Positions 3,950 to 17,237 of a DNA stretch of 21,002 nt are shown here, in pieces. The notes under the pieces are model-generated. The model was not told the origin of the DNA. It was given only the letters and a program-made list of their open reading frames with translations, and ran no database searches. The stretch covers positions 1 to 21,002 of IMG/VR virus record IMGVR_UViG_3300025840_000323; one strand, 5' to 3'. Numbering within the stretch: position 1 is the first letter of the stretch; the number at the start of each line of letters is the position of its first letter. A program made the translations under genes and the position numbers. The DNA comes from a virus.

Positions 3950-4202
3950 AAAACATCATCCAGAATTAAGCAGTAATGAAATTATTTTGATGTTAAATGA
4001 AGCACAAGATGAATTTAGTGCTAGAACTTTGGTATTAGAAGAAGCTACGCAATTTACTACAGTAGCAAACCAACGTTATTATGGATTAAAAGATAGTATA
4101 CTAGAAATAAAGTCAGTGGACTTAACAGATGATTCAGGTAATGCTACAACAATTAAACGTCTACAAGGTAGACCTAAATATAGGGATTTAGATAATGTCT
4201 AA
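3918..4202 (+). CDS. Head-tail adaptor, N-terminal half (apparently split gene)
   Basis: A 94-residue protein. The helical N-terminus (KLQQMIEQVKKHHPELS, then ILMLNEAQDEFS) is followed by a beta-type segment, TTVANQRYYGL ... ILEIKSVDL, ending GRPKYRDLDNV. In many podophage-like genomes this helix-then-strand pattern is the first half of a single adaptor or tail-completion protein of about 200-230 residues. Here the frame stops at 4200-4202, and a frame carrying the expected second half opens at 4195. The start is set by GATAGGAG upstream, inside the previous gene, giving a 32-base overlap. It may be a naturally split gene, a programmed frameshift or an assembly error. The adaptor role is an inference from pattern recall and position. 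Confidence 0.65.
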   Translation: MKLQQMIEQVKKHHPELSSNEIILMLNEAQDEFSARTLVLEEATQFTTVANQRYYGLKDSILEIKSVDLTDDSGNATTIKRLQGRPKYRDLDNV

Positions 4203-4608
4203 TAATTATTCAAGAGTATATAATCGTTCTGTAAAAGAAAACGTATATTGGATTGAAAGAGATTCAATAGGATTAGCAGTATATGACCCGCTAGCAAGTG
4301 AGATAAATAGATTTGCAAGCTTAGATTCTGCAAAAACAGTAACATTGTTTTACTATAAAAAAGCTGACCATTTTAATACATTAGATAAAGCAGCTAGTGA
4401 AATGGATGAAACTAGTGAATTACCAGAACAATTTCATCAATACTTAGTAGATAGAGTTATACAAAAAGGGTATGAGTTTAAACCAGAGATGATTCAGATG
4501 GCTCCATACTTTGAAAGAAAATTTGAAAAAGGAATTAAAGAAGGTAAGATGTATGCTAATAGAGGGCGTATATCTGGAATGAGACAAGTAAGACAAACGA
4601 GTTATTAA
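4195..4608 (+). CDS. Head-tail adaptor, C-terminal half (apparently split gene)
   Basis: A 137-residue protein whose ATG lies 8 bases inside the previous gene (ATGTCTAA overlap), in the +1 frame relative to it. The sequence runs YWIERDSIGLAVYDP, a Ser-rich stretch, VTLFYYKKADHF, then LPEQFHQYLVDRVIQKGYE and a helical, basic C-terminus. The LPEQFHxYLVxRV helix is what I expect in the second half of podophage-type adaptor proteins that follow the portal ring. A weak TAGGGA precedes the ATG, so it may be re-initiated after the upstream stop. Joined with the upstream ORF it would give about 230 residues. It ends in a TAATG overlap with the next gene. Confidence 0.65.
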   Translation: MSNNYSRVYNRSVKENVYWIERDSIGLAVYDPLASEINRFASLDSAKTVTLFYYKKADHFNTLDKAASEMDETSELPEQFHQYLVDRVIQKGYEFKPEMIQMAPYFERKFEKGIKEGKMYANRGRISGMRQVRQTSY

Positions 4609-6951: not shown

Positions 6952-9900
6952 ATGTCTAATACTATTAAAATAAGAAGAGGGAGTGGTGTACCTACTGCAA
7001 GTGATTTTGCTGAATACGAATTAGCTTATGACTATACTGGTAACGACTTATATGTAAAAGTTGGTACTAATATGGTTAAGGTTAATTCTGAAGGTTCAGG
7101 TACAGTAACTAATGTAGTTGCTGGAAATGGTCTTTCTGGAGGTGGAACTGTTACTGCTACTTTAGATTTAGATTTTAGTGAATTAACAGATATGACTTCT
7201 GATATATCTGGTACTACTGAATTTATCTTACAGAACGGAACCACAGAATCACGTAAAGCAGCTAGTGAAATAAAGCTTACTGCTTTTGATGCAACAGGTT
7301 TTAGCATTGCTGGTACAGTAGATACAAGCGGTACTCCAGCAGCTAGTGAATATGCACGATTTACAGATAACAATACCATTGAAGGTAGAAGTTATTCTGC
7401 AGTTCGCAATGATTTAGGTCTTAATATTGGTAGCGATGTATTGGCTTACAATGCTGATGTTCAAACCATTGCAGCTTTAAATCCAACTGTTACCGAAGAT
7501 GGTAAGGTGTTGTCTTGGAATGAAGGTAATGAAGCATATGAATTAGTAGACCAATCCTCTGGTACTATTACTTCTGTTCAAAGTATGACTAATGATTATG
7601 TTTTGACAGCTAGCGGTAGCACAACGCTTCAAGGAGAATCTAATTTAAGATTTGCTGGACAATATTTATCTATACAAGGTAACGACCCATCAAACACATA
7701 CGGCGTAAAAGAAAAACTCAGAATACATAGAAGTGGTACTAATACTGATAGACAATTACAAATCTATGAAATGCGTCATAGTGGTGGTAGAGAGTTTTTA
7801 CAAACATTTAATCTTGATATAACTACTGATAATTCTTCAGGATATACTTATACACAAGGAAGTTATGGTGGTTCATCATATATAGAATTTGACAATGCAG
7901 GTGCATTAAAATTTTACAATGATAGTGGCGTAGCAAGTGGAAGTAGAAATGCTATAACTCCATCTTTATCAATGTGGATTAGTTATGATAACGATATTTT
8001 AATGACTGGAAAGTTAGGAATTGGTTGGACTTCTGGAGTACCTAATAGAGCATTAGATGTTAAAGGCGGTATAGAGTTGTCTCTAGATGATAACGCAATA
8101 GATACAAATAATTTTACTTTAAGAAGAGGCACAGGTGGAGTAGGGCATTTAGACGCTCCTGGAAATATTAGACTTAATATTGATGCAAACAATAATCAAA
8201 CAAATGCTTTTTTTGAAATATGTGCTAACGCTAGTACAACCCCTGTATTTAAAGTAGGAGAAACTGGAATTGTAACTACTGGTACTTGGCAAGGTTCAGC
8301 TGTGGGATTAGCTTACGGCGGTACTGGTGCTACAAGTGCAGCTGGTGCTAGAGTTAACTTACAATTAGGTGATTTAGCATTGTTAGATAATGCATCTATA
8401 TCTGATGTTACTGGTTTACAAACTGCATTAGATGGAAAAGTACCAACATCAAGAACTATTAGTGGTGTAGGATTAACTGGAACTGGAAGTTTAGCTTCTG
8501 ATAGAACATTTATTGTAGATTATTTAGCAGCAATTGATGATAGAGATGTTAAACCTAATGCTATTACAACAAGTGGTAGAAAACAAGTAAGAGCATACTT
8601 CACATCATTAGGTGGATTAACTGGTACTGCTAATAATAATTATCAAGATTTATTAGTCTTATCTACATATTCAGACGGCACTGGTGGAGATGTTAATGCT
8701 TTAGCATTTGACAAATCAGAACAAAAAATTAGACATTATTTAGCAGACCAAAGTGCTACAACCTGGGGTACTGCAAAAACTATTGCTTATACAGATAGCA
8801 CAATGACTGGTACTTGGCAAGGTACAGCTATAAATGCTACTTATATAGGAAATCTACCAGCGAGTAAAATTACATCTGGTGCATTTGATATAGATAGACT
8901 TCCTACTGCAGCGGTTACTAACGGCGATACTGATAATGTTCCAACTGCAGACCACGTATACGATTTTGTTACAGGACAAGGATATTTAACTTCGTCTTCA
9001 ACTCAATCTAAATATTTAAGAAGTGATACTGCAGATACAGCAAGTGGAGCTCTTACTTTTACTAATCGTGTAACTATTTCAGATGCTGGAGCAGACGGAC
9101 TTCATTTAAATCAAGATACTGGAACAACTACAAATTCTAATAGATTGTTTTTTACTGGAGGTTATGGCTCTTGTATTATGCAAGAAAATGATGATTTAAG
9201 TTTTAGAACTGGTGCAACGGTAGGAAGCTCAAGTGGTACTGAAAGATTTAAGATTAACAACAATGGTACTGTTACTGTAGTAGGAAGTCAAGTTATTGGA
9301 GGAGCTTTAACTGCTAATTTTGGTGCAGTATTTAATGAAACTGCTAATGATTCTAATTTTAGAGTAGAAAGTGTTGGTAACCCTCATATGTTGAGTATTG
9401 ATGCATCAACTAATAGAGTGGGAATTGGTACTGGTTCTCCGTCTTATACTTTAGATGTTAGTGGAACTGGTAGATTTACTGGTCATGTGGATTTTGACAG
9501 CACGATAACTATAGATTCTGTTCTTTATGGAAATCAAATTGATTTGACAGGTGAATTAAACTTTACAGGAAATGGTAATAAAGTTATAGATGTACAAACT
9601 TTAGAAGGAAATAATTATTTATTAATTAGACATCATAATCCTGTTGGTAATTTATTTGAAAATGCTTTAAAGCTTACTGCTAATGGTAGTGCAGAGCTTT
9701 ATTATAATAATAGTAAAAAATTTGAAACTACCAATACGGGTGTAACTGTAACTGGTAATATAGCAGTAACTGGAACAGTAGACGGAAGAGACATTGCTTC
9801 TGATGGAAGTAAGTTAGACGGAATAGAAAGTGGAGCTACTGCAGACCAAACTAAATCTGATATAGATGCTTTAGGTATTAATGCTACAACATTAGACGGA

Positions 9901-11577
9901 TACGATTCATCAAGATTATTTAGAAGACAAGGAGCTTCCTCTGCTACAGTAGGTCCAGGTTGGATGACAGTAGCTACCAACACAAGTGGTAGACAAGCTG
10001 GAGAAATATTAGTTACAGACGGAGATTCTGGCGACCACGGATTTATTAGAATACATTGGTTGAGAAGTTATCAAGACAGCAATTTTACTGTTATTAATTG
10101 TGGTGGACACAATAATAGAATTACTGGTGTTAGAGTATTAAGTCAAGATAGTGATAATACTTATGGAGAAAAAATTCTTCAGGTTTATGTAACAGCAAAT
10201 TCTTCCTATGATGTAAAGATATTTCGTATGGGAGATGATGCTCATTATGGCGACCATACAGTACACACACCTACAATAGAAAATACTATTAGTGGTTATT
10301 CTGTGCACGGACAACAATTAGAAAATTTAAGTGCTTATGGTTTTGCACACGAAGAAGGAATACAAGCTGGTGGAAATATGCAAGCAGATAGGATGTACAC
10401 TAGTACTGGAACTGTAGCATTTCCAGCTTACAGTTTTGAACCAGATACCAATACTGGTTTTTATCGAAAAGCAGCAGACCAAATAGGTTTTGTTACTGCT
10501 GGAGAAGAACAAATGTATCTAGCAGATGGTTCATTACACATTGCACAACCAGTGAGATTTCAATTTGCTAATGACCAAAGAATTTATGATGATAGTGGCG
10601 GTGGTTTAGCAGTAGGTGCACAATCTCACAAATTGACGTTATATGCAGGTAGTACTGATGGTACTATTCAGTTTAAAGATGGTGGTAGAAATGGAACTGT
10701 TAGAGCTACAATAAGTGGTGGCGGTGTATATCAATGGGGCTCTGCAGCAGCACATGGTACATTAACTTGGGATACTGGTAAAGCAATAGTAGCAGGTTTA
10801 TCTGAAAATAGTTTAGAATTAAGAAGTACAAATACTTCTGATATGATTGCTATAGAAAATAATCAGACACGTTTTATAGCTGATGGTACTGAAAGAATGC
10901 GAGTAAATGGTAATGGTTTAGATTTAAGTTTTACTAGTGTAAATAAGATTGTAATGCCAGCAGCTATAAGTAGAGATAAATATAGAGTTTGGAATAGTAG
11001 CTTCTATACAATAGGTATGGACGCAAGTTATACTTTTGGTGGTATAGGTAGTGACTATGTTATGACCTTCCAAATGAACGATAGTAATACAAGAGGTTTC
11101 TGGTGGGGAGATGACCAACATCCTAAGACACAAGGTGCTATGGCTTTAACTACTAATGGTAAGTTAACAGTAGCACATAGTGTAAGACTAGGATATGGAG
11201 AAGGTGACACAACAACGCCAGGTGCAACTTATAGATTAGATGTAAGTGGTAGCATTGGAGCAACAGCAGATGTTGTAGCTTATATATCATCTGATAAAAG
11301 ATTAAAAGACAATATTCAAAATATTGCAAATCCATTAGATAAATTAAATAAACTTAATGGTGTAGAATTTGATTGGAATGACAAGCAAGACTTGTATAAA
11401 GGACACGATATTGGTGTTATAGCACAAGAGGTAGAAGAAGTATTACCTGAAATTGTGGATACAAGAGAAGATGGTCATAAGGCAGTTAAATATGATAGAA
11501 TGGTTGCTTTGTTAATTGAAGCAGTCAAAGAACAACAAAAACAAATTAACAAATTAGAGGAGAAGTTAAATGGCTAA
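6952..11577 (+). CDS. Giant tail fibre / receptor-binding protein with S74 chaperone domain
   Basis: A 1541-residue protein, the largest gene here. Residues 3-45 form a second Mtd-like N-terminal domain (TIKIRRGSGVPTASDF, then YTGNDLYVKVG). The body is beta-rich, with collagen-like or trimeric-fibre motifs (AGNGLSGGGTV near 60; YGGTGATSAAGARVNLQLGD near 450; TGTWQGSAV and TGTWQGTAI as repeated modules near 445 and 620) and several lectin-like or beta-helix stretches. The segment near residues 1000-1130 (GDSGDHGFIRIHW, ITGVRVLSQDSDNTYG, DVKIFRMGDDAHYGDH) looks like a compact receptor-type domain. The C-terminal 95 residues are a peptidase S74 intramolecular chaperone. It overlaps the next gene by 8 bases. 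It is the likely host-range determinant. Confidence 0.9.
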   Translation: MSNTIKIRRGSGVPTASDFAEYELAYDYTGNDLYVKVGTNMVKVNSEGSGTVTNVVAGNGLSGGGTVTATLDLDFSELTDMTSDISGTTEFILQNGTTESRKAASEIKLTAFDATGFSIAGTVDTSGTPAASEYARFTDNNTIEGRSYSAVRNDLGLNIGSDVLAYNADVQTIAALNPTVTEDGKVLSWNEGNEAYELVDQSSGTITSVQSMTNDYVLTASGSTTLQGESNLRFAGQYLSIQGNDPSNTYGVKEKLRIHRSGTNTDRQLQIYEMRHSGGREFLQTFNLDITTDNSSGYTYTQGSYGGSSYIEFDNAGALKFYNDSGVASGSRNAITPSLSMWISYDNDILMTGKLGIGWTSGVPNRALDVKGGIELSLDDNAIDTNNFTLRRGTGGVGHLDAPGNIRLNIDANNNQTNAFFEICANASTTPVFKVGETGIVTTGTWQGSAVGLAYGGTGATSAAGARVNLQLGDLALLDNASISDVTGLQTALDGKVPTSRTISGVGLTGTGSLASDRTFIVDYLAAIDDRDVKPNAITTSGRKQVRAYFTSLGGLTGTANNNYQDLLVLSTYSDGTGGDVNALAFDKSEQKIRHYLADQSATTWGTAKTIAYTDSTMTGTWQGTAINATYIGNLPASKITSGAFDIDRLPTAAVTNGDTDNVPTADHVYDFVTGQGYLTSSSTQSKYLRSDTADTASGALTFTNRVTISDAGADGLHLNQDTGTTTNSNRLFFTGGYGSCIMQENDDLSFRTGATVGSSSGTERFKINNNGTVTVVGSQVIGGALTANFGAVFNETANDSNFRVESVGNPHMLSIDASTNRVGIGTGSPSYTLDVSGTGRFTGHVDFDSTITIDSVLYGNQIDLTGELNFTGNGNKVIDVQTLEGNNYLLIRHHNPVGNLFENALKLTANGSAELYYNNSKKFETTNTGVTVTGNIAVTGTVDGRDIASDGSKLDGIESGATADQTKSDIDALGINATTLDGYDSSRLFRRQGASSATVGPGWMTVATNTSGRQAGEILVTDGDSGDHGFIRIHWLRSYQDSNFTVINCGGHNNRITGVRVLSQDSDNTYGEKILQVYVTANSSYDVKIFRMGDDAHYGDHTVHTPTIENTISGYSVHGQQLENLSAYGFAHEEGIQAGGNMQADRMYTSTGTVAFPAYSFEPDTNTGFYRKAADQIGFVTAGEEQMYLADGSLHIAQPVRFQFANDQRIYDDSGGGLAVGAQSHKLTLYAGSTDGTIQFKDGGRNGTVRATISGGGVYQWGSAAAHGTLTWDTGKAIVAGLSENSLELRSTNTSDMIAIENNQTRFIADGTERMRVNGNGLDLSFTSVNKIVMPAAISRDKYRVWNSSFYTIGMDASYTFGGIGSDYVMTFQMNDSNTRGFWWGDDQHPKTQGAMALTTNGKLTVAHSVRLGYGEGDTTTPGATYRLDVSGSIGATADVVAYISSDKRLKDNIQNIANPLDKLNKLNGVEFDWNDKQDLYKGHDIGVIAQEVEEVLPEIVDTREDGHKAVKYDRMVALLIEAVKEQQKQINKLEEKLNG
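11290..11577 (+). other. Peptidase S74 autocleaving chaperone domain of the fibre
   Basis: The C-terminus begins SDKRLKDNI at residue 1447 and continues through NGVEFDWND, GHDIGVIAQEVEEVLPEIV, AVKYDRMVALLIEAVKEQ and a short coiled-coil end. This is the standard order of the S74 domain. Ser1447 and Lys1452 correspond in spacing to the Ser-Lys dyad described for endosialidase-type chaperones. Cleavage is expected just before Ser1447, releasing a 95-residue piece after trimerisation. The recognition is strong; cleavage in this phage is inferred. Confidence 0.92.
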
Positions 11578-12453: not shown

Positions 12454-12654
12454 ATGAAAGTTAGTGAATATAGAGAACAAATGACTGAAAGGGTAGCTGT
12501 AATAGAATCTCAAGTAATTGATATTTATCATGATATAAAAGAGATAAAACAATTACTAAAAGAGCAGAACGGAAGAGTACGTACTAATGAAAAAAACATT
12601 GCACGTATTATTACTGTTGGTGTAGTTATAGCTACCATATTAAGCATATTATAA
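12454..12654 (+). CDS. Putative holin-like protein with C-terminal membrane anchor (XhlA-like layout)
   Basis: A 66-residue protein. Residues 1-48 are a charged helix (REQMTERVAVIESQV, then DIKEIKQLLKEQNGRVRTNE) and residues 51-66 are a hydrophobic segment, RIITVGVVIATILSIL, reaching the C-terminus. The N-out helix plus single C-terminal membrane span is the layout of XhlA-like proteins and some pinholin partners. A Shine-Dalgarno (ATAGGAA) precedes the start. It may form part of the lysis apparatus, but an anchored virion or host-interaction protein is also possible. No separate endolysin gene was identified nearby. Confidence 0.6.
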   Translation: MKVSEYREQMTERVAVIESQVIDIYHDIKEIKQLLKEQNGRVRTNEKNIARIITVGVVIATILSIL

Positions 12655-12697
12655 AAAGTATTTGGAAAGAAGTTAAATAGGTATTAAATTTGACATC

Positions 12698-12838
12698 ATG
12701 CGTAAAGTATTCGGACCAACACAAACAAAACACACGAATGGTAAGAAGAAAACTCGTCAAGGAATGTCGAATAATACTAAATATGGAAATAAGATAAGTA
12801 AAAAGTATTATAAAAAACGTAGTAGAGGACAAGGATAA
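12698..12838 (+). CDS. 46-residue Lys/Arg-rich protein (KKKTRQG ... KRSRGQG)
   Basis: An ORF of 46 codons from ATG at 12698 to TAA at 12836-12838, sharing its last A with the next ATG (TAATG). It is very basic, with the motifs KKKTRQGMSNNTKYG and KKYYKKRSRGQG. I recall similar small basic proteins with TRQG and RGQG blocks in marine phage genomes; no search was made. The coding call rests on dense junctions, the motif pattern and basic composition like its neighbours. No strong Shine-Dalgarno is visible (weak TAGG far upstream). A nucleic-acid-binding role is plausible from charge only. Confidence 0.65.
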   Translation: MRKVFGPTQTKHTNGKKKTRQGMSNNTKYGNKISKKYYKKRSRGQG

Positions 12839-13125
12839 TGGCTGTTAAAAAAGATTCAAGACTAACTAGAGCTGGTGTAAGTGGTTATAATAAACCTAAA
12901 AGAACACCTAACCATCCTACAAAATCGCACGTAGTGGTAGCTAAGGTTGGAGAAACAAAAAAATTGATAAGATTTGGACAGCAAGGTGTAACAGGTGCTG
13001 GCAAGAATCCAAAGAGTAAAAAAGATAAAGCAAGACGTAAATCATATTATGCTAGACACAATGCACAAGATGCTAAACCAAGCAAATTAAGTGCTAGATA
13101 TTGGTCGCATAAAGTTAAATGGTAG
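12838..13125 (+). CDS. Conserved small basic phage protein (IRFGQQG ... SHKVKW)
   Basis: A 95-residue very basic protein. Residues 1-31 (SRLTRAGVSGYNKPKRTPNH) are Pro/Lys-rich. They are followed by a beta-type segment, VVVAKVGETKKLIRFGQQG, a Lys/Gly linker and a helical end, KARRKSYYARHNAQ ... ARYWSHKVKW. The combination of IRFGQQG, ARRKSYYARH and a terminal YWSHKVKW is, from memory, widespread in phages of marine bacteria and cyanobacteria, without an assigned function. The start overlaps the previous stop by one base. The stop is followed at once by the AGGAGG of the next gene. DNA or RNA binding is suggested by charge but not shown. Confidence 0.85.
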   Translation: MAVKKDSRLTRAGVSGYNKPKRTPNHPTKSHVVVAKVGETKKLIRFGQQGVTGAGKNPKSKKDKARRKSYYARHNAQDAKPSKLSARYWSHKVKW

Positions 13126-13137
13126 GAGGATAATACA

Positions 13138-13416
13138 ATGCCAATGGGAAAAGGAACATATGGTAGTCAAGTCGGTAAACCACCAAAAAGAAAGAATAGT
13201 ACTGACAATTACGCACAAAAACAAAGAGGTACAGGACAGAATAGTACAGACAATATGAATGATGGAGCTATTGATAGAAAATTATTTATGGATACTAAAC
13301 AAGGTAAAGATGAATTAAAACGATTAACAGAACAAAGTGCTGCAGTAATAGATGCAGAAAAGCGTGGAAAAATGCCAAAAGGTATAAAAAAATACGCAAA
13401 ACCAATGAGTAAATAA
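13138..13416 (+). CDS. Small basic protein of unknown function (MPMGKGTYGSQVGKPPKRK)
   Basis: A 92-residue protein. The N-terminus MPMGKGTYGSQVGKPPKRK is followed by a low-complexity polar stretch (DNYAQKQRGTGQNSTDN), then helical DGAIDRKLFMDTKQGKDELKRLTEQSAAVIDAEKRG and a basic tail. Initiation has a near-ideal Shine-Dalgarno (AGGAGG at 13124-13129, 8 bases before ATG), the best in this cluster. An in-frame ATG at 13144 is possible but less well spaced. The stop overlaps the next ATG (TAATG). The function is unknown; abundance and basic charge suggest a structural or nucleic-acid-associated role. Confidence 0.75.
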   Translation: MPMGKGTYGSQVGKPPKRKNSTDNYAQKQRGTGQNSTDNMNDGAIDRKLFMDTKQGKDELKRLTEQSAAVIDAEKRGKMPKGIKKYAKPMSK

Positions 13417-13553
13417 TGTTAAAGAAAGCTAAAACAGTAAGTTGGATGTGGGGTGGCAAACGCTATAAAGGAACTCTTATAAGAGAAACCAAAACACATA
13501 AATTTGCTAGAACGCATAACGGTAAAATTAAAAAAATAAAAAAAAATAATTAA
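13416..13553 (+). CDS. 45-residue basic protein with a possible small beta-barrel pattern
   Basis: An ORF of 45 codons from the TAATG overlap at 13416 to TAA at 13551-13553. The sequence has an aromatic/Gly start (VSWMWGGKRYKGTLIRET) followed by KTHKFARTHNGKIKKIKK, a short strand-turn-strand pattern with a Lys-rich end. The alternation GKRYKG and HNGKIKK suggests a small SH3- or KOW-like barrel, a weak inference. It lacks its own strong Shine-Dalgarno and is probably translated by re-initiation after the upstream gene. No function is assigned. Confidence 0.6.
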   Translation: MLKKAKTVSWMWGGKRYKGTLIRETKTHKFARTHNGKIKKIKKNN

Positions 13554-13576
13554 TAACATAATAGGAGACCAGTAAC

Positions 13577-13774
13577 ATGGCAAAAGAAAAAAAAGTAGAC
13601 CTAAGACAAGAAGCTGAGACTAAAATGCAAACTTTAGTTGAACAGCACAACATTCTTGTTGGAGAGATACAAGAAGCCCAAGGTAGATTGGGAGAAGTTA
13701 AACAAATGATTGTAGAGCATCAAGGATATATGAAAGGCCTAGAAGCTTGCAACAAAGATTGTGAGGTAAAATAA
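13577..13774 (+). CDS. Small coiled-coil protein with two C-terminal Cys
   Basis: A 65-residue protein, nearly all helical (LRQEAETKMQTLVEQHNILV, then QEAQGRLGEVKQMIVEHQ), ending LEACNKDCEVK. The start is supported by AATAGGAGACC upstream. The stop overlaps the next ATG (TAATG) so the following holin-like gene is probably coupled. No membrane segment or lipobox was seen, so a spanin is unlikely. The Cys pair could allow disulfide-linked dimers or metal binding, which is a guess. The function is unknown. Confidence 0.7.
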   Translation: MAKEKKVDLRQEAETKMQTLVEQHNILVGEIQEAQGRLGEVKQMIVEHQGYMKGLEACNKDCEVK

Positions 13775-13932
13775 TGGGACCAATATTAGGTAAGTTACTA
13801 ACTAGTTTAGGAACAGAGAAATTACTTACAGCTATTATCTTACACCTAGGTGACTATTTAGTGTTAAAGTCATCTAATAAGCTTGATGATAAGCTTTGGG
13901 GTGAAGTTAAAAAAGCGTTACATAAAAAATAG
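13774..13932 (+). CDS. 52-residue membrane-type protein, possible small holin
   Basis: An ORF of 52 codons from ATG at 13774 to TAG at 13930-13932. The N-terminal half is hydrophobic and amphipathic (MGPILGKLLTSLGTEKLL, then TAIILHLGDYLVLK). The end is charged, KLDDKLWGEVKKALHKK. I recall short phage holin-like proteins with a hydrophobic N-half and an NKLDDKL-type end, but no family search was done. The hydrophobic part is short for two full spans, so a single or amphipathic segment is likelier. The upstream overlap (TAATG) suggests coupling, and its stop overlaps the Shine-Dalgarno of the phosphoesterase gene. Confidence 0.6.
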   Translation: MGPILGKLLTSLGTEKLLTAIILHLGDYLVLKSSNKLDDKLWGEVKKALHKK

Positions 13933-13936
13933 GAGG
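13931..13936 (+). promoter_or_regulatory. Strong Shine-Dalgarno that fixes the TTG start of the phosphoesterase
   Basis: AGGAGG lies 5 bases before TTG at 13942-13944, and no ATG or GTG is found at suitable spacing. The strong site plausibly compensates for the weak start codon. Confidence 0.75.
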
Positions 13937-13941
13937 TTTCA

Positions 13942-14709
13942 TTGAAACTTAAAAAACGTGGTATCGTAATACCAGACCAGCATTATCCATTAGAAGATAG
14001 AGCTGCAGTAAAGTGTGTTAAGAAAGCAATACTTAAAATAAAGCCAAAGGTTTTTGTAAACCTAGGTGATGTTGGAGAATGGGAGTCTGTATCTGCTTGG
14101 AGATATAAAGACAAGAAGTTACCACCATTAGAGTTTCAACTTCCATTAGTAGAAGAAGATATAAGATTAGTAAATGAAGGATTAGATGAGTGGGATGAAG
14201 TACTTAAAAAAGTTGGATGTAAAGAAAAGTATTTACTTCAAGGTAACCACGACCTCTGGTTGGATAATTTTGCTAATAAGTATCCTTATCTCAACGATTA
14301 CACTTTTGAAAAGAAGTGTAGAATCAAAGAGAGAGGATACAAATACAAAGAACACAACTTACCAATCCAAGTAGGTAAGCTTGCGTTCTTCCATGGTGCT
14401 TTTGCAACGACATACCATGCAAAGAAACACCTGGAAACATATGGTGAAAATGTAATGTATGGACATACTCACGATATACAAAGACATACATTGACTAAGC
14501 TTAATGGTAATATTGGTGCTTGGGCATTGGGATGTTTAAAGAAAATGGACCATGATAATAATAAATGGTTAAAAGGTAGACTACATAACTGGGGTCACGC
14601 TTTTGCTATTATTGATTGGTTTACGAATGGAGAATTTAAAGTAGAAGTCGTTGAGATTATTGATGGTAAAACTACTGTATGGGGAGAGTTAATCGATGGC
14701 ACCAAGTAA
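13942..14709 (+). CDS. Calcineurin-like metallophosphoesterase
   Basis: A 255-residue protein with all the metal-site blocks of the calcineurin-like superfamily in order: PDQH (Asp12, His14), NLGDVGEW (Asp43), GNHD (101-104), FFHG (His151) and YGHTHD (174-179). Such enzymes bind two metal ions and cleave phosphomonoesters or phosphodiesters, but the substrate is not predictable here. The enzyme lies within the virion gene operon, between small basic genes and the nozzle gene, which may mean late expression or packaging. The start is TTG with AGGAGG upstream. The C-terminal half (KMDHDNNKWLKGRLHNW, residues 201-217) is not recognised as a known accessory domain. Its 3' end overlaps a 36-codon Lys-rich ORF by 14 bases. 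Confidence 0.9.
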   Translation: MKLKKRGIVIPDQHYPLEDRAAVKCVKKAILKIKPKVFVNLGDVGEWESVSAWRYKDKKLPPLEFQLPLVEEDIRLVNEGLDEWDEVLKKVGCKEKYLLQGNHDLWLDNFANKYPYLNDYTFEKKCRIKERGYKYKEHNLPIQVGKLAFFHGAFATTYHAKKHLETYGENVMYGHTHDIQRHTLTKLNGNIGAWALGCLKKMDHDNNKWLKGRLHNWGHAFAIIDWFTNGEFKVEVVEIIDGKTTVWGELIDGTK

Positions 14710-14806
14710 AATGAAAGGTGAAAGTATTAATAATACTCGAAGAATGTATAACTTAAAAAAGAAAAAGAAGAAGAAGAATGCCAAAAAAAGCTATAAACGT
14801 AAGTAA
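14696..14806 (+). CDS. 36-residue poly-Lys mini-gene overlapping both neighbours
   Basis: An ORF of 36 codons from ATG at 14696 to TAA at 14804-14806. It overlaps the phosphoesterase by 14 bases and the nozzle gene by 29 bases. The product has 16 Lys/Arg out of 36 residues, including a run of seven Lys at residues 21-27. It fits the theme of the small basic genes upstream. It also supplies the purine-rich AAGAAGAAG stretch just ahead of the nozzle ATG, so its main purpose could be regulatory or coupling. It could also be a chance ORF, because the Lys codons are A-rich in an A-rich genome. No strong Shine-Dalgarno is visible. Confidence 0.4.
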   Translation: MAPSKMKGESINNTRRMYNLKKKKKKKNAKKSYKRK

Positions 14807-17237
14807 TTTTAGTGGAGGACTAAATAACAATACTACACCTAGGGACTTAGCTGATAATGAATTGCAAGTATTATCAAACCTTAGTAATGAAGTACCAGGG
14901 AAGTTAAAGGTTATTGGTAATGAATCTAATATTACAACTACTGAATTAAATGCTATTAATTCTGTAAACTATGGTAATGGATTACTACATACAAACTTTG
15001 ATAGAAACTTAGGTAGTCCAACTACTATTAATGAAACAGAATATTTATTTATTAATGATACTACTAATTCAGAAGTAGAGATATTTGATGTTACTAATAC
15101 AGATTTAGAATCAGATACTATTGATTATGGTGATACTTCTTCTAGATTAGAAATGTATAATATTGATGGTGGTGTTAGAGTAGTGCCGCATTATGGAAAC
15201 TCTGGTAATACTCCTAAGTTATTTACGTATTATAAGTATAATAGAAAACTAGGTTCAGGTGGAGCTGCTGGAGTTCATGCAGTACAATCTGGTGATTATA
15301 GTTCAACAGATTTATATATAGCACCATTACGAGGTAGAAAAGATTCTAACAATAGTAGTTATAATTACAATGTTGATACATTAAATAGTCATATAGAAAA
15401 TGATGGAGAACCAAATTTTCATCCTAGTCAAGGGTCTGAAGTTTATATACCAAGTAGTGTAAGAGTAGGTAATTTAGGAAGTAGTTCTGCTCAAGAAGAT
15501 AGATGGAATGTTACTTTTGCTAATCTTGAACAAGAACTAGATGACTGGGATAATTTTGACGCTGCTCCAATAGATGCATACACAGATAATGGCGAAGGTT
15601 CTATGGCTTTTATTCCATATTTTGTAAATAAATCTAGTGAAAATACTGAATCAGATATACTTATAGATAAAAATAAACGTTATGCTTTTTGGTGTTCAAA
15701 AGTGTACAAAGATTTTAATGGGTCTATTCAGGAATCTCCTGCTGCATACATAGGTTATGCTCCTCAAAACCTAAATGCAGATGAAATAACACAAGTATTA
15801 CATTTTGGATTTGTTGGAAGGTTGGGACAAAAAGAAGCTAATTATGCAGGATTTAGAATATATTGGGGTATTATAGAAGATTTTGTTGAAGCTGATGGAA
15901 ACAATACTACTGTTGAAGAAGGTTCTGTTGGTGCTAGATATTTATTTTGTGAAGTTGATTTTGAACAAGGTATACGTTTAGCTGGAGAAGAATCATACAA
16001 ACCTTTTGGTGTAGATGAGGTTGAAGTACAATCTACTCCACTTCAAATATATGAAAGACAATTCGTATATCCATATAATTTTTATTCTGTAGGTTCTGAT
16101 GCTTATGCAGTAGGAGAAGATATATTTAGCTTACCTACAGTAGAACCTTACATCATAGATGCACCTTCTGTAATTGGCGAAGCTAACACAGGATTTAAAA
16201 CATCTACTATACTAAACAGAAGAGTATATGCTGGTAATGTTCAATACTATAATGATAAACACGAGTTAGTTACAAAATCAGATAGAGTATTAAAATCTAA
16301 ACCTAATGAGTTTGATTACTTTGAAGAAGAAAGTTTTCTTGATGTAGAAGTAGAAGATGGAGATAGCATTGTAAATTTATCTACAACTGGTAATAAGTTA
16401 TTACAATTTAAAAAACAAAATTTATTTATTATTAATGTATCAAGAGGTATTGAGTTTTTAGAAGCAACCTTTCAATATAAAGGGTGTGAGAAAGAATACC
16501 ATGTTATAGAAGCAGAAGGATTTGTAGCTTGGTTTAATAAGTATGGTGTTTACATATATGATGGTAATAGAATATTAGATATACATTTAAATGACAATGG
16601 ACAACCATTCTTTGATGATTGGGAATCTAACTACTATCATGATAACAATGTGATAGGGTTTATACCAAAAACAAAACAATTATATATTACCAATAATCAA
16701 TCTACTAACAATGTATTGATGTTTGATTTGAAATCTCAGTCTTGGATGACTGGTGATGTAACAAGTACAAATGATATTACTAATTTAATTACTAGAAATA
16801 ATGGTGATATTAATTGGGTAGAAATACAATCAAGTGATGCGAAGCTTGTAAAATGGAGCAATACTCCATCTAGTTTTACAAAGACTGGTGTTATTATGCA
16901 ATCTAAAGAGTTTGACTTTGGTACACCTATGGTAAATAAAAATATAAATACTATTTATGTAAATTGTAAACAAACTGATAATATTATTTTACAAGGATTT
17001 GGTACAAAAAGAAACAATACACCAGTTCCATTAACAGATATACCAGATACTGCAAATCAAAGTGGCGATACATTGTCGAACACTACAAATAGTTTAAAAA
17101 CGCTTAAAATACCTGTTCCTGACACTTTTAAGAACTTAGTGAGCTTTGGTATAGCATTGAAGAGTACAGGGGCTGTAAACGCCGATTTTGAAGTAAATGA
17201 TATACAGATTGTATACAGAGATAAGGTAGTGCGATGA
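14778..17237 (+). CDS. Tail nozzle-like virion protein (T7 gp12 size)
   Basis: An 819-residue protein, similar in length to T7 gp12 (794 residues). It opens with INVSNFSGGLNNNTTPRDLA and NLSNEVPGKLKVIG (about residues 6-47), the N-terminal signature I associate with podophage tail nozzle or stabilisation proteins. The body is beta-rich with repeated YxFIND-like and FDVTN-like strands, consistent with a beta-propeller. Around residues 565-600 lies EYHVIEAEGFVAWFNKYGVY, a blade-like segment of the type seen in nozzle proteins. The C-terminus (ADFEVNDIQIVYRDKVVR) is also beta. Neighbouring internal-virion genes support a tail-tip role. The start follows an AAGAAGAAGAA purine run. It ends in an ATGA overlap with the next gene. 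Confidence 0.75.
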   Translation: MPKKAINVSNFSGGLNNNTTPRDLADNELQVLSNLSNEVPGKLKVIGNESNITTTELNAINSVNYGNGLLHTNFDRNLGSPTTINETEYLFINDTTNSEVEIFDVTNTDLESDTIDYGDTSSRLEMYNIDGGVRVVPHYGNSGNTPKLFTYYKYNRKLGSGGAAGVHAVQSGDYSSTDLYIAPLRGRKDSNNSSYNYNVDTLNSHIENDGEPNFHPSQGSEVYIPSSVRVGNLGSSSAQEDRWNVTFANLEQELDDWDNFDAAPIDAYTDNGEGSMAFIPYFVNKSSENTESDILIDKNKRYAFWCSKVYKDFNGSIQESPAAYIGYAPQNLNADEITQVLHFGFVGRLGQKEANYAGFRIYWGIIEDFVEADGNNTTVEEGSVGARYLFCEVDFEQGIRLAGEESYKPFGVDEVEVQSTPLQIYERQFVYPYNFYSVGSDAYAVGEDIFSLPTVEPYIIDAPSVIGEANTGFKTSTILNRRVYAGNVQYYNDKHELVTKSDRVLKSKPNEFDYFEEESFLDVEVEDGDSIVNLSTTGNKLLQFKKQNLFIINVSRGIEFLEATFQYKGCEKEYHVIEAEGFVAWFNKYGVYIYDGNRILDIHLNDNGQPFFDDWESNYYHDNNVIGFIPKTKQLYITNNQSTNNVLMFDLKSQSWMTGDVTSTNDITNLITRNNGDINWVEIQSSDAKLVKWSNTPSSFTKTGVIMQSKEFDFGTPMVNKNINTIYVNCKQTDNIILQGFGTKRNNTPVPLTDIPDTANQSGDTLSNTTNSLKTLKIPVPDTFKNLVSFGIALKSTGAVNADFEVNDIQIVYRDKVVR

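Follow-up and report, generated by a model that had tools for sequence, protein, structure and literature searches.

The internal proteins IPI-III of phage T4 are basic, are carried in about 300 copies each, and many are ejected into the host (PMC9026906). In phage P1, the DarA-Hdf proteins bind the inner capsid wall and DNA (PMC12810830). The Chlorella virus PBCV-1 packs many basic DNA-binding proteins, whereas for phages the same paper notes no evidence of a large basic-protein contribution (PMC3281028). Here we consider a run of small genes in a stretch of 21,002 bases, the IMG/VR record IMGVR_UViG_3300025840_000323 (the window), whose source is a podovirus-like phage. Four of them, g46, g95, g92 and g45, may encode a cassette of small basic head-associated proteins that are made late, enter the procapsid and lie with the packaged DNA. 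This view is held tentatively, its probability being in our judgment a little short of even. Within it, homology and domain fusion lend good support to the predicted head association of g95. We infer further that the proteins would enter the head, bind DNA and perhaps be ejected, and that the partners g46, g92 and g45 would share the location of g95. The cassette consists of:

12698..12838, plus strand: g46, 46 amino acids, net charge +15, KKKTRQG family, opens the basic cassette (phrog_516, E=4.5e-6)
12838..13125, plus strand: g95, 95 amino acids, net charge +22, IRFGQQG/ARH/YWS family, phrog_7595, in TAATG overlap with g46
13138..13416, plus strand: g92, 92 amino acids, net charge +11, family with N-terminal MPMGKGTYGS and a variable basic tail
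13416..13553, plus strand: g45, 45 amino acids, net charge +14, WMWGGKRYKGTLIRETKTHKFARTHNGKIK family, the most constrained of the small genes (ratio of nonsynonymous to synonymous polymorphism, pN/pS, 0.11)

The identity of g95 bears most directly on its role. It matches phrog_7595, a family of unknown function, over residues 3-95 (profile positions 3-96 of 96; E=1.6e-34), and is an ordinary full-length member in which no difference was seen. A more distant tie leads to Tlr6F, the protein described as DUF5754 (PMC12220804). Tlr6F is described as conserved in almost every polinton-like virus, as well as in several virophages, many of the giant viruses and some phages, and has no similarity to domains with known structure or function (PMC4642659); its range in giant viruses is taken here from published papers. 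Compared directly, g95 scores 11.4 bits against DUF5754 (PF19058), under the gathering score of 27.4. The best of 49 relatives reaches E=4.6e-4, below the cut-off among the matches listed, and the direct Pfam match of g95 to DUF6321 is also under its cut-off. The tie is made by an intermediate: a protein of phage NCTB passes the DUF5754 cut-off (43.8 bits against 27.4; E=2.5e-11), matches phrog_7595 (E=1e-11), and scores 41 bits against a g95 profile to which 3,000 shuffled sequences give at most 12.8. Since this one protein matches all three, g95 is by sequence homology a distant relative of Tlr6F, not a member as Pfam defines it.

The predicted fold of g95 has two strands and helices, with a mean predicted local distance difference test score (pLDDT) of 78. 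Searches of the PDB with the sequences of g95, g46, the NCTB protein and the Aeromonas protease described below gave chance-level matches only. Relatives of g95 also match PF23980 ('tail tube initiator') with an E of 3e-4 at best, but this assignment was rejected, as the scores seen are under the Pfam cut-off; the match spans just the first two thirds of these proteins and leaves out their conserved C-terminal part. A relative of g95 also lies at L332:3501-3716 in Roseobacter phage SIO1, unannotated in the GenBank record.

In the papers on Tlr6F that were consulted, no link to head proteins was reported. Such a link comes from fusions of the g95 domain to head proteins, which are the strongest functional evidence in this analysis. 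In protein 4L372XY_107 of an Aeromonas phage (L329:2258-3181), the domain (phrog_7595, E=4e-11) precedes a Peptidase_S78_2 head protease (E=2e-20), and the gene stands two genes before a head decoration gene. In gp125 of Vibrio phage ICP1, annotated as 'capsid protease', the order is opposite, the domain (about residues 184-261) following the protease domain; the genes there run portal, gp126, gp125, scaffold, decoration, coat. In cyanophage CL131, the domain occupies residues 534-604 of a 1393-residue protein that also holds portal (60-419) and Mu F (991-1103) domains. Purified CL131 particles, analyzed by liquid chromatography-tandem mass spectrometry, are reported to contain the portal protein ORF012 among 23 structural proteins (PMC6293099). 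That the domain occurs in three architectures, and on either side of the protease, suggests that it was joined on separate occasions, each time to a head-assembly protein.

Two observations on these proteins may be added. The profile of phrog_1530, which carries the label 'DNA methyltransferase', matches residues 11-305 of 4L372XY_107, and judging from the sequence that label is probably wrong. In a 173-residue protein (L367:4758-5279), an acidic helical N-terminal part with a weak match to phrog_32745 is fused to a full g95 domain.

The following mechanism can be envisaged. Synthesis of the cassette proteins would be late, at the same time as that of the capsid and tail proteins, and translational coupling would account for part of it. 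g95 would be the free form of a Tlr6F-like domain that in other phages is joined to a procapsid protease or to a portal-MuF protein, and binding of the domain to the procapsid interior or the portal region would bring about recruitment. g95 and its basic partners would then enter the head, where they would lie along the packaged DNA and help to package or condense it. They may also be ejected with the DNA.

It should be noted that fusion to a head maturation protease is compatible with a role in assembly no less than with a structural one. HK97-fold proteases are active in the procapsid only, which would agree with g95 and its partners being transient procapsid factors, such as scaffold helpers, chaperones or protease adaptors, that are removed on maturation and do not organize the DNA of the mature head. 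However, the CL131 fusion is to a portal-MuF protein, and the portal ORF was detected in mature particles (PMC6293099). Transient factors would also leave the strong positive charge of the partners unexplained. We regard this explanation as rather unlikely, while giving it serious weight.

The position of the genes in other phages provides a second line of evidence for the packaged cassette. Relatives were collected from IMG/VR with g95, the phosphoesterase of the window, its nozzle protein, g92 and g46 as queries, and their open reading frames (ORFs) were searched with profiles. They are at most the best 80 loci per query, and frequencies among them differ from those of the whole collection. 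Adjacency counts come from 81 distinct phosphoesterase relatives, each limited to loci in which both genes are present; phosphoesterase genes that were exact duplicates were removed, close relatives remain, and some of the fetched loci share one contig.

The match of g46 to phrog_516 is full-length (residues 3-46, profile positions 5-47 of 48), and 22 columns are invariant across the 18 aligned sequences of its family. In 26 distinct relatives from another marine group, the connector gene immediately follows g46; most of these also have g46 directly after the scaffold and capsid genes, usually with stop-start overlap. A tblastn search with g46 against a phage collection gave no matches, perhaps because a low-complexity filter masked g46 itself. 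As to g95, many of its nearest large neighbors in unrelated phages are of terminase, portal, head-tail adaptor, scaffold, capsid and head-protease families (best 25 of 119 families). This shows that g95 has a home in the late region rather than strict adjacency to head genes. Scanning 84,980 prokaryote genomes for g95 yielded 55 loci, of which all but a few are in metagenome-assembled bins; many of the contigs are short. The bins that hold these contigs (L338-L392) are named as Euryarchaeota, Bacteroidetes, Planctomycetota and others; the loci look like viral contigs binned with hosts.

The third line is the integrity of the cassette. g46 and g95 are adjacent in 53 of 56 distinct relatives and g95 and g92 in 46 of 51; g45 either follows g92 or separates g46 from g95. 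One clade has the cassette (g46 and g95, with g92, g45 or further basic genes) directly after the nozzle gene, not before g65. A single change on the nozzle tree explains the post-nozzle position (9 of 52 rows, support 100/100), and by this phylogenetic reasoning a single move carried the whole cassette, independently of the phosphoesterase block. That block comprises:

13577..13774, plus strand: g65, 65 amino acids, coiled-coil-like, net charge -2, opens the fixed block
13774..13932, plus strand: g52, 52 amino acids, net charge +4, phrog_402 (E=1.1e-8)
13942..14709, plus strand: calcineurin-like metallophosphoesterase with a TTG start (PF00149, above cut-off; phrog_221, E=3e-26)
14696..14806, plus strand: g36, 36 amino acids, net charge +15, of the fixed block and not the mobile cassette (pN/pS 0.27)
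14778..17237, plus strand: putative tail nozzle protein, end of the fixed block (best fold match a tail chain of SU10, from a low-confidence model)

Here adjacency is nearly without exception: g65-g52 in 67 of 67 distinct relatives, g52-phosphoesterase in 70 of 70, phosphoesterase-g36 in 72 of 72 and g36-nozzle in 70 of 72. Judged by gene order, these five genes are a near-invariant, tail-linked block, separate from the basic cassette. Although g36 overlaps the phosphoesterase and nozzle genes at its opposite ends, 72 of 81 relatives retain it. The eighth small gene precedes the cassette:

12454..12654, plus strand: g66, 66 amino acids, net charge +1, hydrophobic C-terminus (pN/pS 0.23), present in 29 of 81 distinct relatives

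g66 probably encodes a separate membrane protein outside the basic cassette. In relatives it is often set apart by two other genes. The gap between g66 and g46 in the window (12655-12697) is 43 nt, and many relatives carry two extra genes there (L165:1930-2615, L288:7765-8448). The first encodes about 98 residues with a membrane segment and a coiled coil; the second, of about 126 residues, resembles a secreted thioredoxin-like protein but lacks the CxxC pair. Both have apparently been lost from the window.

A first-pass annotation of the window had taken all eight genes as one functional set, g66, g65, g52 and g36 included. The genes do form one continuous run, and most are conserved in the closest relatives. 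Over the viral metagenome relatives they are kept together and in order on many independent contigs, so that the expectation of joint conservation on which that proposal hung is borne out. However, g46-g95-g92 moved independently of g65-g52-phosphoesterase-g36-nozzle, and this single relocation event weakens the proposal of one set. Moreover, g66 is found in only 29 of the 81 relatives, often with two genes intervening. The eight are better described as a mobile basic cassette, a fixed phosphoesterase-nozzle block, and g66; that all of them are one set we consider very improbable.

The genes themselves are present as described, with eight ORFs of 66, 46, 95, 92, 45, 65, 52 and 36 codons at 12454-13932 and 14696-14806; of those no longer than 52 codons, three come before the phosphoesterase and the last, of 36 codons, comes after it. 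As the genome is AT-rich and the ORFs are short, they might be thought spurious. Plus-strand ORFs of at least 36 residues cover 96% of 12454-13932, far over dinucleotide shuffles (mean 12%, maximum 42%). Gene order is conserved, and pN/pS against relatives is 0.11-0.57 across all the small genes, well under 1, the value for g92 coming from just 6 comparisons. From these ratios the small genes are taken to be real protein genes under purifying selection; spuriousness is refuted, and we leave it next to no probability.

Not all of the first-pass description stands equally well. The motifs it listed do recur in marine phages, and members of the cassette recur in Pelagibacter, roseobacter, Methylophilales and cyanobacterial phages. 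That most of the proteins are strongly basic holds for g46, g95, g92, g45 and g36 (+15, +22, +11, +14 and +15) and fails for the genes beginning at 12454, 13577 and 13774, namely g66 (+1), g65 (-2) and g52 (+4). That most are linked by TAATG is an overstatement, as this stop-start overlap occurs at three of nine junctions (g46/g95, g92/g45 and g65/g52). Two further junctions overlap by 14 nt (phosphoesterase/g36) and 29 nt (g36/nozzle), and the remaining four have gaps of 9-43 nt. The observation is thus partly confirmed, and the interpretation placed on it partly supported: domain fusions and gene position favor a virion-linked role of the basic members.

The charge of the basic proteins deserves separate consideration. 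In six long proteins of the window, none of the equal-length stretches matches the charge of the five basic mini-proteins; their basicity is therefore not a consequence of the AT-rich composition of this genome. Within 1.5 kb of g46 or g95, small genes of net charge at least +10 number 0.77 per kb, against 0.11 per kb elsewhere in the same loci. The cassettes of relatives hold further basic mini-families, with which the set recombines in other marine phages: 'SLxxWTKQKWRTKSGK', 'GNYTKPxMRKRL...QWSARKAQ', 'LTKRQxxAMKRHSKHH', 'KGLYANIHAKRKRI' and the DUF5872-like 'LRKWFKEDWVDI'. An AT-hook reading of g92 was rejected: an RGRP/KGRP core with basic flanks is found in 20 of 101 family members, and g92 of the window has VGKPPKR. 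Judged by charge alone, condensation of DNA by the basic mini-proteins is plausible.

Small size and high charge are also common among proteins that act in the host cell. The cassette could accordingly encode nucleic-acid-binding or host-takeover proteins, directed at the ribosome, RNA polymerase or the nucleoid, that merely ride in a late operon; the NCTB relative adjoins a gene annotated as a transcription elongation factor and lies near a thymidylate kinase gene. Takeover genes, however, are usually early, whereas those of the cassette have a late-region position and are coupled to structural genes, and the g95 domain is fused to procapsid proteins. We think this explanation unlikely. For host takeover as such, which the first-pass annotation offered beside condensation, there is nothing in favor beyond analogy with the internal head proteins of T4 and P1.

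Returning to head-associated proteins that lie with the DNA, the supports are the fusions, the position of g46, the conserved order and block move, basicity, the clustering of basic genes and the late surroundings. Several points weigh against it. In the window, the cassette lies between the fiber and the nozzle and not beside the capsid genes. Genes 3-5 kb from g95, taken as a control, are a mixed set that also includes terminase and head or packaging genes, so that no tighter linkage of g95 to head genes is claimed than to the wider late region. A fold search with the g95 model gave nothing over chance and hence indicates no binding function. No virion proteomics was found in the literature for free-standing g95 or g46, and literature searches on HMO-2011-type phages and pelagiphages gave no usable virion proteomics. 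Finally, phages are generally said to neutralize their DNA by ions and polyamines, not by basic proteins (PMC3281028). Taken together, the evidence suggests that this set of marine-phage mini-proteins may act inside the virus head with DNA.

As to the setting, the major capsid protein (1149-2579) is of the SU10 type (PF17236, E=1.2e-28), and 4195-4608 has a weak SU10 adaptor match that scores under the Pfam cut-off. The 819-residue protein at 14778-17237 has no match in Pfam or PHROG, and its AlphaFold2 model is poor (mean pLDDT 49.9). The best fold match of this model is the SU10 tail chain 7z47_G, and most of the top matches are podophage tail chains; the label 'nozzle', given earlier, is therefore accepted with moderate confidence, in keeping with the SU10-type capsid protein. 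By eye, the C-terminal end of the 1541-residue fiber (6952-11577) looks like an S74-type intramolecular chaperone (SSDKRLKDNI...). A promoter scan of the window gave no excess over shuffles, and Rfam and transfer RNA searches found none.

Tlr6F, noted since 2013-2015 as widely conserved in viruses, has been without a functional clue until these fusions to head proteins. As a fusion partner of head protease and portal in tailed phages, it acquires a concrete and testable place and time of action, and one such fusion is in ICP1, a well-studied laboratory phage. A broader, doubtful proposition is that Tlr6F is a capsid-interior module, in tailed phages either free in a portable basic cassette or fused to the head protease or portal, and part of a DNA-organizing protein layer exchanged among double-stranded DNA viruses of different realms. 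If the cassette is packaged, abundant ocean phages would organize their DNA with protein, not by ions and polyamines alone.

In closing, we compare the locus with what is known elsewhere. Like the Tlr6F/OLV2 family (Yutin et al. 2013, PMC3671162; 2015, PMC4642659), g95 is a small protein found over many DNA viruses. The annotation of the algal virus CpV-BQ1 includes DUF5754 as well as DUF5872 (PMC12085832); basic mini-genes flanking g46 or g95 in relatives resemble DUF5872 (PF19197) weakly (E 0.0016-0.014, under the Pfam cut-off), and such genes are absent from the window itself. 4L372XY_107 and ICP1 gp125 hold the same domain fused to Peptidase_S78_2, whereas g95 stands alone, with no such protease adjoining it in the window. 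To neither T4 nor P1 internal head proteins is a sequence relation shown; those of P1 are larger and their function is anti-restriction. The T4 type has an N-terminal capsid targeting sequence that the prohead protease cuts; no such sequence is known in the cassette proteins, and no prohead protease was identified in the window. The cassette proteins would nevertheless occupy the same place as DarA-Hdf, at the inner capsid wall and DNA. They resemble T4 IPI-IPIII (PMC9026906) in being small, basic, late-made, several per genome and replaceable by other basic proteins, and the net charges of g46, g95, g92 and g45 (+11 to +22) agree with the small and basic character of the T4 type.

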